36,955 nt of DNA from a virus. Position numbers and translations under genes: made by a program. The notes beneath the pieces were generated by a model, which saw only the letters and a program-made list of their open reading frames with translations, had not been told where the DNA came from and ran no database searches. Of the stretch, positions 11,206-17,147 are shown in pieces. The DNA lies in IMG/VR virus record IMGVR_UViG_3300042560_001089, positions 1-36,955 of that record; one strand, written 5' to 3'. Each line of letters begins with the position of its first letter. Within the stretch, counting starts at the first letter, position 1.

Positions 11206-11511
11206 TTAGACCTGGCCCCGACGGATCGGCGCGAAGTTCACCGTGGTGGGACCAGCCGCAGACCCGATAGCCGCAACGTGCGTGACCAATTCATTCGCGG
11301 GGAGATACGCCACGCCAAGCGGGGGAAGCACCACGTCGGTCGTCAGCACCGCAGTCTGCGCGCCCGTGCCGATGCGAACGCCCACATGCAGGGTCGCGGA
11401 CGTGTTCGCCACGCGCACCACATCGCAGCCCGTGCAAGTGATCGTGCCGCCGACACTCGATGCCGTGGCCGCGACGTTCACCGCCGTGCCGGGTACAACT
11501 GCGTCAATCAT
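11206..11511 (-). CDS. Hypothetical beta-rich protein between terminase and portal
   Basis: A 101-aa protein starting at ATG 11511, 2 nt after the terminase stop; TTG at 11517 is an alternative. It is Ala/Val/Thr-rich with one CTGC pair (around residue 26) and alternating hydrophobic residues, which suggests an all-beta fold. No signal peptide or membrane segment is visible. Its position suggests a minor capsid or head-decoration part, but I do not recognise it. Confidence 0.68.
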   Translation of the reverse strand: MIDAVVPGTAVNVAATASSVGGTITCTGCDVVRVANTSATLHVGVRIGTGAQTAVLTTDVVLPPLGVAYLPANELVTHVAAIGSAAGPTTVNFAPIRRGQV

Positions 11512-11513
11512 TA

Positions 11514-12854
11514 TCAATCCTCAGCTTGTCTGGAGCGCTCTTTGCGCTTGATGATTTCGCTAAACGTCAGGCCCGAGGTGATTGAGCCGTCCTGCTTGGC
11601 GATAAAGTCGTAGACTGGTTTCGGTGCCACTGGATCGGCGCGCAACTCACGCCATGCCATCGCCATGTAACGGGCCGCGTCTGCCGTGTGGCTCGTCCAG
11701 TCGTGTCTAGGACGATCCTTGAAGGTCTTTAACTTCTCGTCGTATTCGGTCCGGTATTGCCGTAGAGCTTCGATGCCCTCACGGCACCGCACCGCATCCC
11801 ACCTAGACCGCGGCATGGACACGCGAAGGGCGTTGATACCGTCCATCACGTCGTTCTGCCGCAGGACATTGGGGAACGCGCCCGTCAATTCCTTGAGCGT
11901 TTCAACCCGCGTCCGACCCGTGCCTAAGTCTCGGGCCATCGCATCATGCGGAACGTAGTGCTTGGCGTACTTGTAAGGCTTGGACTGTAGGACCGCCGCG
12001 TAGTGCTGTAGCCCGTGGCCGTGGGCCTCGTAGTGGTCGATTACATGTAACTCTGGCCCGACAACCTGGAAGAACCAGATGGCCGTAGCGTCGCCTATGC
12101 CCAAGTCCCAAGCGGTGTAGACCGAAACAGCGGGATCATACGGAACGTCTGCGATGCGGCCCTGCTTATCGAGGTCCGCTAGTTCCTTGCCGTAGAACGA
12201 CCCGAGAATTGCGGCATCGAATGAACACTCAAACTCGCCTTGATACTGTTCGGGCGTCATTTCAGCGCGGGCGGCGTCAAGTTCCGACTGAGCAAGCAAA
12301 CCAGTCTCGGACGCCCTCAGAACCGCGCTATACCAATCGCTGTCGGCCTTCGATCTTTCGTACACATCCCAAAAGGCGTTGCGGCCCTTTGGCGTACCAA
12401 TGAACACCGCCCAACCCTGCCGGTCGGCTAGTGCCGGTCGTATGACCGCACCCCATGCCGCAGGGGGCATGTCGGCGTATTCATCGAGGATTACGCCGTC
12501 TAGGTAAATGCCGCGCAGTCGGTCGTAGTTATCGGCACCGTAAAGTCTGATTCGCCTGTCGCCCGGTAGATCAACCCGCAACTCGGCTTCGTTAAACGCC
12601 GTACCGGGGATATCCCGCGTCATGCGCTTGACGTAACCCCAAGCTACGTCCTTCGCCTGCACGAACAACGGCGCGATGTATGCGAACCGTGGGCTAGGCT
12701 TATCGCACCGTAGCGCCGCGTCGATCAGGTCAGCGACACAAGCAACCGTCTTACCAGCGCGTCTGTGTGCGACAAGGCAGGCCCAACGCTCGCGGCGTTC
12801 GTGGAACGGTATGAACTGGTCGCGGGGTCTGTAGCCTAGGTCAACCGTTGGCAC
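11514..12854 (-). CDS. Terminase large subunit
   Basis: A 446-aa packaging motor protein. The Walker A motif is AHRRAGKT (residues 29-36), and the Walker B with catalytic acid is GVILDE (120-125). A coupling motif is suggested by FIGTPKGRN. The C-terminal RNase-H-like nuclease shows TAWDLGIGDA (about 246-255) with the first metal-binding Asp and a final acidic motif HTADAARYM near residue 400. Length and motif order are normal. The start overlaps the putative small terminase gene by 14 nt. It cuts concatemers and drives DNA into the capsid through the portal encoded two genes downstream. Confidence 0.93.
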   Translation of the reverse strand: MPTVDLGYRPRDQFIPFHERRERWACLVAHRRAGKTVACVADLIDAALRCDKPSPRFAYIAPLFVQAKDVAWGYVKRMTRDIPGTAFNEAELRVDLPGDRRIRLYGADNYDRLRGIYLDGVILDEYADMPPAAWGAVIRPALADRQGWAVFIGTPKGRNAFWDVYERSKADSDWYSAVLRASETGLLAQSELDAARAEMTPEQYQGEFECSFDAAILGSFYGKELADLDKQGRIADVPYDPAVSVYTAWDLGIGDATAIWFFQVVGPELHVIDHYEAHGHGLQHYAAVLQSKPYKYAKHYVPHDAMARDLGTGRTRVETLKELTGAFPNVLRQNDVMDGINALRVSMPRSRWDAVRCREGIEALRQYRTEYDEKLKTFKDRPRHDWTSHTADAARYMAMAWRELRADPVAPKPVYDFIAKQDGSITSGLTFSEIIKRKERSRQAED

Positions 12855-13311: not shown

Positions 13312-13716
13312 CTAGGCAGCTTTCTTGGCGCACCAGATAAACACGGCGAGGGTCAATAGCGCTTCCTCGTGACGCTTGCGGGCGGTCTCACGCGATACGC
13401 CCAAGTGCTGCGCCATGATCTTCCAGCCTAGCCGTGTGCCGCGGCCCCAAAGCAAGTAACGGGCTTCTGCGGGGTCTTCAAAGGGTGCCTCGAATATCCA
13501 CACCAGGAGCGCGTCGAGCCGATCGATCTGATCCGCGCTTGGGGTGAACCTCGGCATGGCTACTTTGTCGTACCCGTAGGCCTCGATCTGCTCGCGCACG
13601 ACTTCCGGCATCCCCGAGCGGAGTTGCATCGGTCTGGTCTGTCCCACGGGTAGATTCCGCAAGGTCCGGACTGCCTCGCAGATTAGAAGCTCTAGCGTCT
13701 GTCGATAGTCAGTCAC
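13312..13716 (-). CDS. DUF6362-like helix-turn-helix protein
   Basis: A 134-aa protein. The start is GTG 13716, with GGAGG 8 nt upstream; a longer in-frame ORF to 13806 lacks such a site and overlaps the upstream gene. The C-terminal third (ARYLLWGRGTRLGWKIMAQHLGVSRETARKRHEEALLTLA) looks like a sigma-region-4 or resolvase-type helix-turn-helix, with a preceding acidic helix. The pattern matches DUF6362 phage proteins as I remember them. As the last gene before a terminator and the late operon, it is a candidate late-gene regulator or a DNA-binding packaging factor. Confidence 0.7.
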   Translation of the reverse strand: MTDYRQTLELLICEAVRTLRNLPVGQTRPMQLRSGMPEVVREQIEAYGYDKVAMPRFTPSADQIDRLDALLVWIFEAPFEDPAEARYLLWGRGTRLGWKIMAQHLGVSRETARKRHEEALLTLAVFIWCAKKAA

Positions 13717-13745
13717 GGTTGGCCTCCGAAGAAAAATATTTGTTG

Positions 13746-13931
13746 TTAACCTTTGCGGACCCCGTATTGGCGGTTCGCGATGTTCGTCACGATCTGGCGT
13801 TCCCAATCGTCCGATAGCCTGTCCACGTGTATGCAGGCCACGCCGTCAAACTGCCACGCTCTACGGCGGAACTCGTCCAATTCCCATTCCGGGGTTTGGG
13901 GACGGCCCGTGTTCGGCCAAGAGGACTTCAC
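13746..13931 (-). CDS. Small protein, 61 aa, GTGA-coupled
   Basis: GTG at 13931 overlaps the upstream TGA (GTGA), preceded by GGGGG. The product begins MKSSWPNTGRPQTPEWELDE (GTG read as Met) and contains RAWQFDGVACIHVDRLSDDWERQIVTNIANRQYG. The longer in-frame ORF to 14039 would run through the upstream gene. There is no recognised family. It reuses the same junction sequence as the gene upstream. Confidence 0.65.
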   Translation of the reverse strand: MKSSWPNTGRPQTPEWELDEFRRRAWQFDGVACIHVDRLSDDWERQIVTNIANRQYGVRKG

Positions 13932-13947
13932 GCCACTTCCCCCTTCT
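13928..13947. repeat. Junction repeat copy 1 (tcacgccacttcccccttct)
   Basis: A 20-nt sequence identical to 14095-14114. On the - strand it encodes the end of one gene (KGEVA then stop), supplies the GGGGG ribosome site and provides the GTGA stop/start overlap for the next gene. Confidence 0.85.
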
Positions 13948-14095
13948 TCAACCGTGCTCGCGCCTCGGCCGCGTATCGGGTTGCGCTTTCCGTCCACGCA
14001 GCGCGCTCCGCACGATGACGCGCTTCCATGTTGCGCCACTCCTGCTGCATTTCCTCGGGCAGGTCGATCATCGGTTCATCGTCGTACATAAACAT
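13928..14095 (-). CDS. Small acidic/helical protein, 55 aa
   Basis: ATG at 14095 (TGATG with the upstream stop) or GTG at 14098 (GTGA), with GGGGG upstream in either case. The product reads MFMYDDEPMIDLPEEMQQEW, then a charged helix RNMEARHRAERAAWTESATRYAAEARARLKKGEVA. The C-terminal KGEVA is identical in DNA to the end of the gene upstream, because both contain the repeated junction. The function is unknown. Confidence 0.65.
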   Translation of the reverse strand: MFMYDDEPMIDLPEEMQQEWRNMEARHRAERAAWTESATRYAAEARARLKKGEVA

Positions 14096-14114
14096 CACGC
14101 CACTTCCCCCTTCT
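14095..14114. repeat. Junction repeat copy 2
   Basis: A second copy of the 20-nt junction at 13928-13947, 167 bp away in direct orientation. It again spans a KGEVA-stop end, the Shine-Dalgarno sequence and the next start codon. Confidence 0.85.
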
Positions 14115-14679
14115 GTCCGATGCCCGCCTTGAACTTCTCCCAATCGGCCATTGCGGATTTGAACGCGGGATTTTCCACGCGGTCTCGGGCTTCCTTCTGG
14201 CGTGGGGTCTCGATCTTCGCCGCCGCAACCCGCGATGCCTGGAATCTGATTTCCCGCGTGCGCGCCGTGATCTCGTCAAACATCGTGGAAAGTTCCGCGA
14301 CGGACGGGAACCACTTGAAGCGGGCGGCGGCGTTTTTCAGCGAGTTTTTCGTGAAGCACATGGGCGGCGCATCGATGATCGCCACATAGCCCGCAATCCG
14401 CGTGCGCGCGTCTTCCAGCGGCATGTTGCCCGCGACCAACGGACCCAGCGCCCCAAGCCACCTCGTCACTGTATCGCGCTCTGCGGGGCGAAGAGAGGCA
14501 TTGCACGAGGCAAGCAGCCTTTCAGCCTCTTCGCGCACGCCCGGCGTCACCGGCAATCCGATCCGGTGTTCAGGCGGCTTCGTCAAGTCCTCCGCCACCG
14601 CGCGCAATGTCTTCGATGGCTCCGGAACGGATAAGCTCAGCGAAACCGTTTCCGCCCGTTGTGCGATGCTGTTGCCCAC
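14095..14679 (-). CDS. Putative lambda P-like helicase loader
   Basis: A 194-aa protein with GTG start 14679 preceded by AGGGG. The core (residues about 40-135: GVREEAERLLASCNASL...WLGALGPLVAGNMPLEDARTRIAGYVAIIDAPPMCFTKNSLKNAAARFKWFPSVAELSTMFDEI) has the helical pattern of replication-associated proteins that follow O-like genes in alphaproteobacterial phages. The KWFPSVAEL segment is typical. The C-terminus is a charged helix. It overlaps the upstream O-like gene by 110 nt in another frame, which is long; a shorter start could exist, but no ATG with a ribosome site was seen. Helicase loading is inferred from position. Confidence 0.6.
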   Translation of the reverse strand: MGNSIAQRAETVSLSLSVPEPSKTLRAVAEDLTKPPEHRIGLPVTPGVREEAERLLASCNASLRPAERDTVTRWLGALGPLVAGNMPLEDARTRIAGYVAIIDAPPMCFTKNSLKNAAARFKWFPSVAELSTMFDEITARTREIRFQASRVAAAKIETPRQKEARDRVENPAFKSAMADWEKFKAGIGQKGEVA

Positions 14680-15367
14680 CTCGTGATCCCCTTTCCGCTA
14701 TCGTTCCAATCCTGTTTTGCCAAGTCGTTCGCCAGCCTCGGGCGGTTCGCATTTCCCCCGCCCCCTTACCGTCCGTCCAATACGCGGCGTACTTCGTTTG
14801 CTCGCGGACGATCTCGGCATCCGAAAGGCCCATTCGCTTGGCGAAGTCGATGTCGATTTCGTCGGCCACCCAATCGCGCGGCAAAGCCATCTTCGGTTCA
14901 CGCTTGCGGGGCGGCGGTGTAACAACAACATCAGATGTCTTGTTATGTTCTGTATTGTTATGTGTTGTAGCCGGAATTTTCCGGTCGTTTCCGGAATTTT
15001 CCGGAACTTCCGGCTCAGGTGCTTCCGGTTCCGGATCGGGCTTAGACTTGCGGTTCTCTTTCCGCTGTGCGTCGTTCCCGTTCTGCCGCTCGCCCCACTT
15101 GGCGATTGATCCGTCTTCCGAAATCAGGTTGCGCGTGGTGAATCCAGAGAGGATCGCGGCGGCTTCCGTTTCCTCGCAATCGAGGCACACGGCCAATTCT
15201 TCCGCCGTCAATGATGATGCGTTACCGCGCGGCTTCGACTGTGCGGCCCGCTCTAAAGCGATTGCCCACGCCGCCAAGACATCCCCAAGGCGCACGCCAG
15301 CGGCCCGCGCTATCAGCTTGAACTTGGGGTCTGAGTGGGTGCCGACGTGCCAGCAAAGCCAATTCAT
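14570..15367 (-). CDS. Lambda O-like replication initiator
   Basis: A 265-aa protein starting at ATG 15367 (ATGA with upstream gene). Residues 1-95 (MNWLCWHVGTHSDPKFKLIA...VRLGDVLAAWAIALERA...LTAEELAVCLDCEETEAAAILSGFTTRNLIS...IAKWGERQ) form a winged-helix pattern typical of phage replication organisers. Residues about 105-155 are a Pro/Glu/Asn/Thr low-complexity linker encoded by the palindromic repeats at 14971-15034. A C-terminal helical part (about 160-235) includes AYWTDGKGAGEMRTARGWRTTWQNRIG, a pattern of replisome organiser C-termini. The initiator should bind the repeats inside its own gene and recruit the next gene's product. Confidence 0.75.
   Translation of the reverse strand: MNWLCWHVGTHSDPKFKLIARAAGVRLGDVLAAWAIALERAAQSKPRGNASSLTAEELAVCLDCEETEAAAILSGFTTRNLISEDGSIAKWGERQNGNDAQRKENRKSKPDPEPEAPEPEVPENSGNDRKIPATTHNNTEHNKTSDVVVTPPPRKREPKMALPRDWVADEIDIDFAKRMGLSDAEIVREQTKYAAYWTDGKGAGEMRTARGWRTTWQNRIGTIAERGSRGGQQHRTTGGNGFAELIRSGAIEDIARGGGGLDEAA
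14939..15034. other. Candidate replication origin inside the O-like gene
   Basis: Two identical 14-bp palindromes CCGGAATTTTCCGG lie at 14971-14984 and 14991-15004, spaced by 20 bp start to start. They are followed by related TTCCGG half sites at 15007-15012, 15023-15028 and 15029-15034. Next to them is an AT-rich tract (14939-14970) with two TTGTTATGT direct repeats. Iterons plus an AT-rich unwinding region inside the initiator gene is the lambda ori arrangement. Confidence 0.7.
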
Positions 15368-15834
15368 GCTGCGACCTCGCGAATCTTCCGATATGCCTGT
15401 GCGTGCTTCACTCGAAACGCCTCCGGGTCTGACTTCATCTTCGCGTAGAGACTCTTCCGTGCTTGGCGGACGATCAAATCTAATGCGAGGCGGTCTAGCT
15501 CCGTCACCGACTTAGGCTGTTGAACTTGCGGCAGTTCTGCGGAGAAGCACTTGCTCACGGCTTGCAGCTTCGACTGGAAGTCGGCATCCGCGATGCGTTC
15601 CTCGATGCGGTTCATTCCGTTGATGACCGACGTATGATCCCGTCCGAACGCCCGCCCGACTTCCGCGTAGGACTTGCCGAATTTCATCCGCATGACCCAC
15701 CAGACGACATGACGGGCGCACGCCGTAGCCGGAATCCTGGACGTGCCCATGATCTGACACACAGGGATTCCGAACTCCCGCGACACGACAGCGGCGATCC
15801 GGTGTTCAAGTGGTAGGTTCCCGTCGAAAGGCAT
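15364..15834 (-). CDS. Stand-alone DnaA domain IV-like DNA-binding protein
   Basis: A 156-aa protein starting at ATG 15834. Residues 10-80 match the layout of DnaA domain IV: IAAVVSREFGIPVCQIMGTSR, then ACARHVVWWVMRMKFGKSYAEVGRAFGRDHTSVINGMNRIEE. The diagnostic RDHT(S/T)V is at 65-70, preceded by a basic residue and the AEVGRAFG helix. The AAA+ ATPase and other DnaA domains are absent, and a different helical tail (residues 95-156) follows. It is coupled (ATGA) to the O-like gene. It probably recognises DnaA boxes and could redirect or compete with host DnaA. Two DnaA-box-like 9-mers lie just upstream. Confidence 0.82.
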   Translation of the reverse strand: MPFDGNLPLEHRIAAVVSREFGIPVCQIMGTSRIPATACARHVVWWVMRMKFGKSYAEVGRAFGRDHTSVINGMNRIEERIADADFQSKLQAVSKCFSAELPQVQQPKSVTELDRLALDLIVRQARKSLYAKMKSDPEAFRVKHAQAYRKIREVAA

Positions 15835-15941
15835 CCGTTATCCCCGTTGTTCACATCAGGTTGCGCTTTGTACTTGACCCATCTTCCGCGTGTCGAATGA
15901 GCGCATCTATGGAAAAGCGACGAAATCGCGCTGTTTGCGAG
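15835..15941. promoter_or_regulatory. Intergenic region with DnaA-box-like sites
   Basis: This 107-bp gap lies upstream of the DnaA-like gene. It holds TTGTTCACA at 15847-15855 (one mismatch to TTWTNCACA). A second box, TTGTCCACA on the - strand (15957-15965, + strand tgtggacaa), lies just inside the end of the DUF1064-like gene. GGGGATAACGG precedes the ATG at 15834. I see no convincing promoter hexamers. Confidence 0.5.
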
Positions 15942-16358
15942 TTATCCCGTGGTTTGTGTGGACAAGTCGGCGTGCTCGTTCTTGATGGAGAACTTGGCTT
16001 TCTTCTCGACCACCCGCTTGATGGGCGCGCACGGCACCCCGTTTATGCAGAACTCGACCGCAGGGAACATCGCCTGAGCGAGCTTCCAGCGGATCGTCCA
16101 AGCCCTCGTCTTTGTCGGGGCCACCTTGTGCTCGTCCCACACTTCCTTCTGCCCCCGGAAATAGGCGAAATCGCATCGAATGCTCGTGATCTTCACCCCG
16201 TTGACCACCAGCGGGACGTTGAGTTGGCGGCGGAGCGTTCGGATCTCCCCCGCGCGTTCTAGGAGCTTCAACTCGCACCACCGCCGATGCTCGGCCTGAC
16301 TGTCGAACGTGATCCCGTCTACCGTCACCCGCTTGTTTCCGTACTTGGGGCGCTTCAT
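15942..16358 (-). CDS. DUF1064-like nuclease
   Basis: A 138-aa protein starting at ATG 16358 (ATGA with the methyltransferase stop). It shows the DUF1064 signature: KYGNKRVTVDGITFDSQAEHRRWCELKLLERAGEIRTLRRQ, then G.KI..I.CDFAYF.....V.DEHK. The E/D/QxK arrangement (FDSQAEHRRW; CDFAYFRGQKEVWDEHK) fits a PD-(D/E)XK-type nuclease fold. Such proteins are common in phage replication blocks and are thought to act on DNA branches or ends. The biochemical activity is inferred from the family. Confidence 0.8.
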   Translation of the reverse strand: MKRPKYGNKRVTVDGITFDSQAEHRRWCELKLLERAGEIRTLRRQLNVPLVVNGVKITSIRCDFAYFRGQKEVWDEHKVAPTKTRAWTIRWKLAQAMFPAVEFCINGVPCAPIKRVVEKKAKFSIKNEHADLSTQTTG

Positions 16359-17147
16359 GCGGCACCGTCCAAGAGGCTCGCTTGAACGGGCTTAGGCGCT
16401 GGCTCGGCAAAGAGGCGGGGCTGCTTGTATGCGTCGTCAATTCGCTTGCAGGCTATGTCGAAGTATTTCGGCTCCAACTCTATGCCGACGAACTTCCGCC
16501 CGAGCTTTGCGCACGCAACACCCGTGGTGCCGCTGCCCATGAAGGGGTCGCAGACCGTGTCGTCGCCGCTTGTGTGTATCGACACGAGCCGCTCGATCAA
16601 CTCGATGGGCTTTTCGTTCGGGTGCAACCGTTCGCGGGGCGGCATTTGCGAGAGAATGTTGGCAACCGTTCCCGCGTCGGGATTCCACCGGATGCGCCCG
16701 CCCGTTTTGTGCGCGACCATCACCATCTCATGCTGCCTGCGATACCGAAGGCCGAGTCGGGGGTTTTTCTTGTCCCAAACCAGCGAATGAAAGAACTGCA
16801 AGCCGCCGCGATCCATGCGCTCTGCGAGCCACGCGAACACGGGGCGAGGCCCCCCCCCCGCCACAAAAGCAACAGCACGCCGACGCCCCTTTGGGGAGCA
16901 ATCGGGCCACTTCCAGAAGCATCCCGTCGACCACGCGCCGCATTGAGTCCGCGTCGTCGTTCGCTATCGGCTTGCTTTCGATCCCACGGTGTTCGTTTAG
17001 GCGCGCGTTAAAGTCGCCGTCATGGTTGGAGTTGCCGTAGGGCGGATCTGTAATGCAGGCATCCACCTTCCCAAGCGTCGGCAGTATCTCTAGGCAATCC
17101 CCCAGGATCAGCCGGGCGTCTCCGATGATTTCCTCTCGGTAGGTCAC
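16355..17147 (-). CDS. DNA methyltransferase, interrupted by a frameshift at a poly-G tract
   Basis: Two overlapping frames encode one protein. The N-terminal frame starts at GTG 17147 (GTGA coupling) and carries ITDPPYGN (DPPY at residues 34-37), the catalytic motif of N6-adenine or N4-cytosine enzymes. At 16859-16850 the coding strand has ten consecutive G residues; with nine, the reading passes directly into the second frame. That frame contains [35 protein letters not shown] and the SAM-binding [33 protein letters not shown], ending at 16355. Motif order (DPPY before the GxG loop) fits the beta class. As written, translation ends at 16728 and lacks the SAM site. The split is a sequencing or assembly error, slippage expression, or phase variation. 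It may protect phage DNA from host restriction. Confidence 0.85.
16850..16859. repeat. Ten-base homopolymer (C on +, G on coding strand)
   Basis: The longest homopolymer I noticed. It sits exactly where the methyltransferase changes reading frame. A tract of nine or twelve would restore a single open frame. Confidence 0.9.

Follow-up and report, generated by a model that had tools for sequence, protein, structure and literature searches.

A stand-alone DnaA domain IV gene coupled to a putative replication initiator gene in a phage genome

A 36,955 bp viral record (IMG/VR IMGVR_UViG_3300042560_001089, referred to here in its full length as the window) carries on its minus strand a gene (15364–15834) whose 156-residue product, which we call D4, resembles the DNA-reading part of the bacterial initiator DnaA, and the locus raises the question of what a phage does with this part alone beside its own replication genes. 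The observations in the initial annotation of this region are mostly right, and its interpretation, that such a protein may place DnaA boxes under phage control, act as a decoy against DnaA, or add a second origin-binding activity, is partly supported.

D4 is a DnaA domain IV and contains no other part of DnaA. It matches the Pfam family Bac_DnaA_C (PF08299; 2.6e-16, 59.8 bits against a curated cut-off of 31.5), the domain occupying residues 12–77, and is the only protein in the whole record with a match of this type; the matches returned by sequence search are solved DnaA structures. The ATPase part is absent, as the initial annotation had claimed, and with the full-length DnaA model TIGR00362 the 156 residues, which include no AAA+ ATPase, score 56.5 bits (cut-off 343.9). 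The structural comparison with DnaA domain IV that had been proposed also bears this out: an AlphaFold2 model based on an alignment of 48 phage sequences (pLDDT 91, pTM 0.70) aligns with 1J1V (TM 0.88 on the target, rmsd 1.8) and also with 3PVP, and the PDB entries that it matches best show the DNA-binding domain of DnaA in complex with DnaA boxes. D4 is like these domains in its fold and DNA-contact residues but lacks DnaA domains I–III and has an additional C-terminal helical hairpin (residues 112–155 of the model), the sequence of which is common to the window and the related phage L006. By alignment, D4 R41 corresponds to E. coli DnaA R399, and D66, H67 and T68 to D433-H434-T435; these four residues, together with R33 and R65, are nearly invariant among the phage relatives. 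The R399-equivalent arginine, at a position outside our search pattern, is present in all 100 aligned phage D4 sequences, and the D433, H434 and T435 equivalents, all three inside that pattern, in 99, 99 and 96 of them. Conservation of these residues supports the earlier suggestion that D4 could read DnaA boxes, to which a box cluster in this phage, described below, adds weakly.

D4 is the first of three overlapping genes running on the minus strand from 15834 to 14095, followed by an O-like gene (14570–15367, 265 aa) and a third gene with a GTG start (14095–14679, 194 aa). The reported ATGA coupling is confirmed, with the D4 stop overlapping the O-like start at 15367–15364, and the same stop-start overlap is found in the related phages L004, L005 and L006. 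The O-like protein has weak matches to phage 'replication initiation protein' families (phrog_3729 at 1.1e-5, phrog_9474 and phrog_1408 at ~2e-4), and its assignment as a probable initiator draws on these and on the stronger PHROG matches of its relatives; it has no sequence similarity to lambda O (hhalign probability 0.1%), and no relatives were found in the bacterial genomes searched. Within its gene lies the window's densest cluster of CCGGAA/TTCCGG, with nine positions in 100 bp, seven of them non-overlapping, a number reached in none of 300 synonymous-codon shuffles. The iterons and the palindrome TTCCGGAA at 14971–15034, which had been noted from the sequence, are thus well founded, and they are followed by a 50 bp AT-rich stretch (14920–14969, 30% GC), likewise not reproduced in the 300 shuffles, that could serve as an unwinding element. 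Internal iterons followed by an AT-rich stretch form a lambda-type layout, and we predict this to be an origin inside the O-like gene.

The third gene had been described as P-like and as overlapping the O-like gene. The overlap is real (110 bp), but the P-like label failed tests of sequence and fold and is positional, referring to the place where a helicase loader might be expected: searches of Pfam, PHROG and NCBIfam gave nothing of note, a profile comparison with lambda P gave no match (hhalign probability 1%), and the low-confidence structure model (pLDDT 66) has no structural matches. The module therefore resembles lambda O-P in having an initiator gene with internal iterons beside an AT-rich stretch and then an overlapping gene, and differs in that neither the O-like nor the third protein matches its lambda counterpart. 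It differs also in that the phage brings its own DnaA domain IV, whereas lambda uses host DnaA at pR, and the earlier view that this is not the textbook lambda arrangement holds. Two features near the operon may be recorded here. A 20 bp exact repeat occurs at 16339–16358, at the start of a DUF1064 gene, and at 13928–13947, near the end of a small ORF. A DNA methyltransferase gene (16355–17147, minus strand) is broken near 16850, where a run of C separates it into two overlapping frames, by either sequencing error or a phase-variable homopolymer; the gene is intact at the corresponding place in L005.

The initial annotation implied that a separate DnaA domain IV is rare, and this does not stand. 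A pattern scan of IMG/VR, which selected for D-H-T, found at least 316 stretches encoding relatives among 600 listed. A search of IMG/VR by protein pattern for close relatives of the window D4 found none. Matches to D4 also occur among predicted viral structures labelled 'DnaA C-terminal', and the lone domain is therefore not a novelty; these proteins (UniProt/BFVD entries from uncultured Caudovirales and Nonlabens phage P12024L; PHROG 27829) are about 90–205 aa long and consist of the same lone domain, but their identity to the window D4 is low (12–34%). The literature searched contained nothing specific on a phage-encoded DnaA domain IV and no reported function. We examined 89 phage loci, drawn from the scan and from phage records, in which the D4 ORF is shorter than 330 aa and was taken as stand-alone, and neighbours were counted in 67 non-redundant loci with seed sequences excluded. 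An initiator is detectable by profile in 32 of the 67, lying on the D4 strand in 31 (21.6 expected from gene orientation) and within 1 kb of D4 in 20 (permutation mean 9.3, p=0.0002), where the profiles were seeded partly by D4 neighbours and the permutation null ignores operons. The initiators beside D4 are of several unrelated types (DUF1376, O-like and winged-helix), and 13 of 80 loci found by terminase similarity carry D4. Many phages thus have a stand-alone D4 gene, in most cases as a member of the replication operon. Among cultured phages, Rhizobium phages RHph_TM3_3_3 and RHph_N28_2 have a stand-alone D4 beside a DUF1376 initiator.

Some phage D4 genes have other associations. In L134 (287–1015) D4 is fused to a second HTH of transcription-regulator type, a fusion also present in L063, and in L145 (2429–3054) D4 and a small protein similar in type to the second HTH of L134 are encoded by adjacent genes. 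A NusG-like antiterminator gene directly follows D4 in L063, L068, L078 (4668–6064), L054 (4734–5876) and L185. Sinorhizobium meliloti 4H41 has a close relative of the L063 D4.

Comparison of the nearest relatives shows that D4 is exchanged separately from O at the junction of the two genes, and that the iterons travel with O. The D4 proteins of L004 and L005 are 94% identical, but the N-termini of their O proteins are only 41% identical and the repeats differ, with DNA similarity stopping ~45 bp into O. The reverse is seen between the window and L004, where the O N-termini are 77% identical and the iteron is the same but the D4 proteins are only 29% identical, and DNA similarity starts at the O start. 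At the iteron position in the O gene, different hexamers are repeated in L006 and L010, and the repeats of L005 at this position are not significant (p=0.09). Because the iterons track O and not D4 across these exchanges, a role for D4 at the iterons is unlikely; from this pattern we reject a D4 that reads the iterons, and the proposal of a second origin-binding activity there is not supported. A separate mosaic joint is present in the large terminase gene of the window (11514–12854, minus strand), whose product shares its last 35 residues without a difference with the L005 terminase (11261–12736), although the two proteins differ elsewhere.

Upstream of D4 is a 107 bp gap (15835–15941) that offers a place for a D4 promoter, although a consensus scan of the gap found no match to a sigma-70 promoter. 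The two DnaA boxes that had been pointed out, TTGTTCACA (15847–15855, plus strand) and TTGTCCACA (15957–15965, minus strand, inside the 3' end of the DUF1064 gene), are present and are the only matches to TTRTNCACA in the 36,955 bp (0.7 expected), both at the gap. Box scoring adds a weak site, TTATCCCCG (15838–15846, plus strand), which abuts the first. The gap is the densest DnaA-box-like cluster in the record, with a score equalled somewhere in 5 of 40 shuffles, and the assignment of these predicted D4 target sites is suggestive only. DnaA boxes show no enrichment across the phages that carry D4 (TTATNCACA 23 observed, 18.5 expected), in the initiator genes, or upstream of D4 at the 89 loci, of which 4 rank in the top 5% against 4.45 expected. 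For lack of enrichment we rejected arrays of DnaA boxes as a general target of D4.

The only characterised stand-alone domain IV proteins that we found are GafY (formerly HdaB, CCNA_01111) of Caulobacter and the N-terminus of GafA, DNA-binding regulators in a phage-derived element, a setting that D4 shares. GafY is an activator of the genes for the gene transfer agent that binds at its own promoter and makes contact with sigma-70 (PMC9632790, PMC11150451); it was reassigned by its authors from control of chromosome replication to transcription (PMC9632790). The initial annotation had overlooked this family of transcription activators. There are differences, however. GafY is paired with DUF6456/GafZ and acts on late genes of the gene transfer agent, whereas the window D4 lies beside an O-like initiator, its downstream neighbour, with no DUF6456/GafZ adjacent. 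Seven GafY genes next to DUF6456 (L188–L192, L195 and L196) encode proteins without the histidine of the R-D-H-T motif that DnaA and the phage D4s share, five having R-D-R-T and two departing further, and the loss of this histidine suggests a changed DNA specificity. The seven form their own group in a tree from a short alignment, and because of this and the difference in the recognition helix we do not class the window D4 as a GafY. D4 also scores only 32 bits against a cut-off of 136 on NF004688, the closest NCBIfam short DnaA-like model, which we assume to cover GafY.

The sigma-like gene nearest to D4 in the window encodes a DUF6362 protein with weak similarity to sigma-70 region 4 (13312–13806, minus strand), and L004 (8956–9465), L005 (9829–10602) and L006 (6063–6620) carry both D4 and DUF6362. 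The DUF6362 gene lies upstream of the terminase genes, the place taken by NusG-like proteins in related phages, and its product is a candidate late regulator. No D4 was found in any of 20 DUF6362 stretches from alphaproteobacterial genomes (6.5–20 kb examined in each), and DUF6362 as an obligate partner of D4 is not supported. A D4/DUF6362 combination equivalent to GafY/GafZ was rejected as the main explanation on this count and on the differing recognition helix.

We propose, with a probability of about 40%, that D4 is a phage-encoded DnaA-box reader that regulates transcription of the replication operon. D4 would bind the promoter-region sites ahead of its own gene (15838–15965) and, presumably by contacting RNA polymerase and as an activator rather than a repressor, govern the transcription of all three genes of the operon. 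Because the origin is inside the O gene, this transcription would also run through it, a requirement of lambda-type origins. Lambda needs its origin to be transcribed; host DnaA stimulates this activation of ori-lambda at pR, and sites resembling DnaA boxes are found next to pO (PMC3985674). A D4 acting at the operon promoter, with the origin contained in the second gene of the operon, would fit this role of DnaA. The phage would thereby replace the job of host DnaA at pR with a DnaA-like activator of its own and escape the host's control of DnaA. GafY shows that a lone domain IV can act as a transcription factor, and the fusions of D4 to an HTH and its NusG-like neighbours point in this direction too. 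This proposal builds on the fold and contact residues of D4, the coupling of its gene to O and the origin within O, the repeated occurrence of D4 and an initiator in one operon, and the distinction from GafY. It is countered by the relatives, which lack the upstream box signal, by the missing sigma-70 consensus in the gap, and by the consideration that a common early operon is no proof of a common mechanism.

The main rival to regulation of the operon is a decoy or take-over directed at the host, in which D4 occupies DnaA boxes at the host oriC or dnaA promoter, blocking host initiation and freeing DnaB and the replisome for the phage. We consider this possible but rather unlikely. The contact residues of D4 are kept without a surplus of DnaA boxes in the phage genomes, which is what targets on the host chromosome would lead one to expect, and the independent exchange of D4 and its association with non-orthologous initiators suggest that its partner may be a host component. 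A decoy needs neither start-stop coupling to O nor steady membership of the replication operon, however, and the related GafY/HdaB was first assigned to chromosome replication and later to transcription (PMC9632790).

A GafY-like activator of late genes, working with the sigma-like DUF6362 protein (13312–13806) or a NusG-like protein, has in its favour the known examples of lone domain IV, the D4 genes directly ahead of NusG-like genes, and the joint presence of D4 and DUF6362 in the window and L004–L006. We nonetheless think it improbable, given the R-D-R-T motif of most GafYs and the separate grouping of all of them, the low score on the short DnaA-like model, the DUF6362 stretches that lack D4, and the replication initiator as a frequent neighbour of D4 in phages. 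That D4 acts at the phage origin as a co-initiator, helping O to melt DNA or load the host helicase, would account for the shared operon, the overlap with O and the origin within it, but seems very doubtful: nearly identical D4 proteins accompany different O proteins and iterons in L004 and L005, the reverse holds for the window and L004, the initiator genes are not enriched in DnaA boxes, and D4 lacks the parts of DnaA for oligomerisation and helicase loading.

Regulation of the replication operon and capture of the host oriC could be aspects of a broader, and at present quite tentative, picture in which phages carry widespread, exchangeable DnaA mimics that consist of the DNA-reading domain only and occupy a cassette slot ahead of the replication initiator; through them the phage would gain control of DnaA-box sites in its own operon, the host oriC, or both, and its replication would no longer follow the host DnaA clock. 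For transcription through its origin, lambda relies on host DnaA. GafY, the only well-studied lone domain IV, is a transcription factor that was first taken for a replication regulator. With its reading head kept, coupled to an initiator and exchanged independently of the origin, the D4 family gives direct access to the question of how DnaA's DNA-binding part functions alone, and the cultured Rhizobium phages that carry D4 make its role testable. The family is also a way into how phages coordinate with, or break from, the replication of their hosts.
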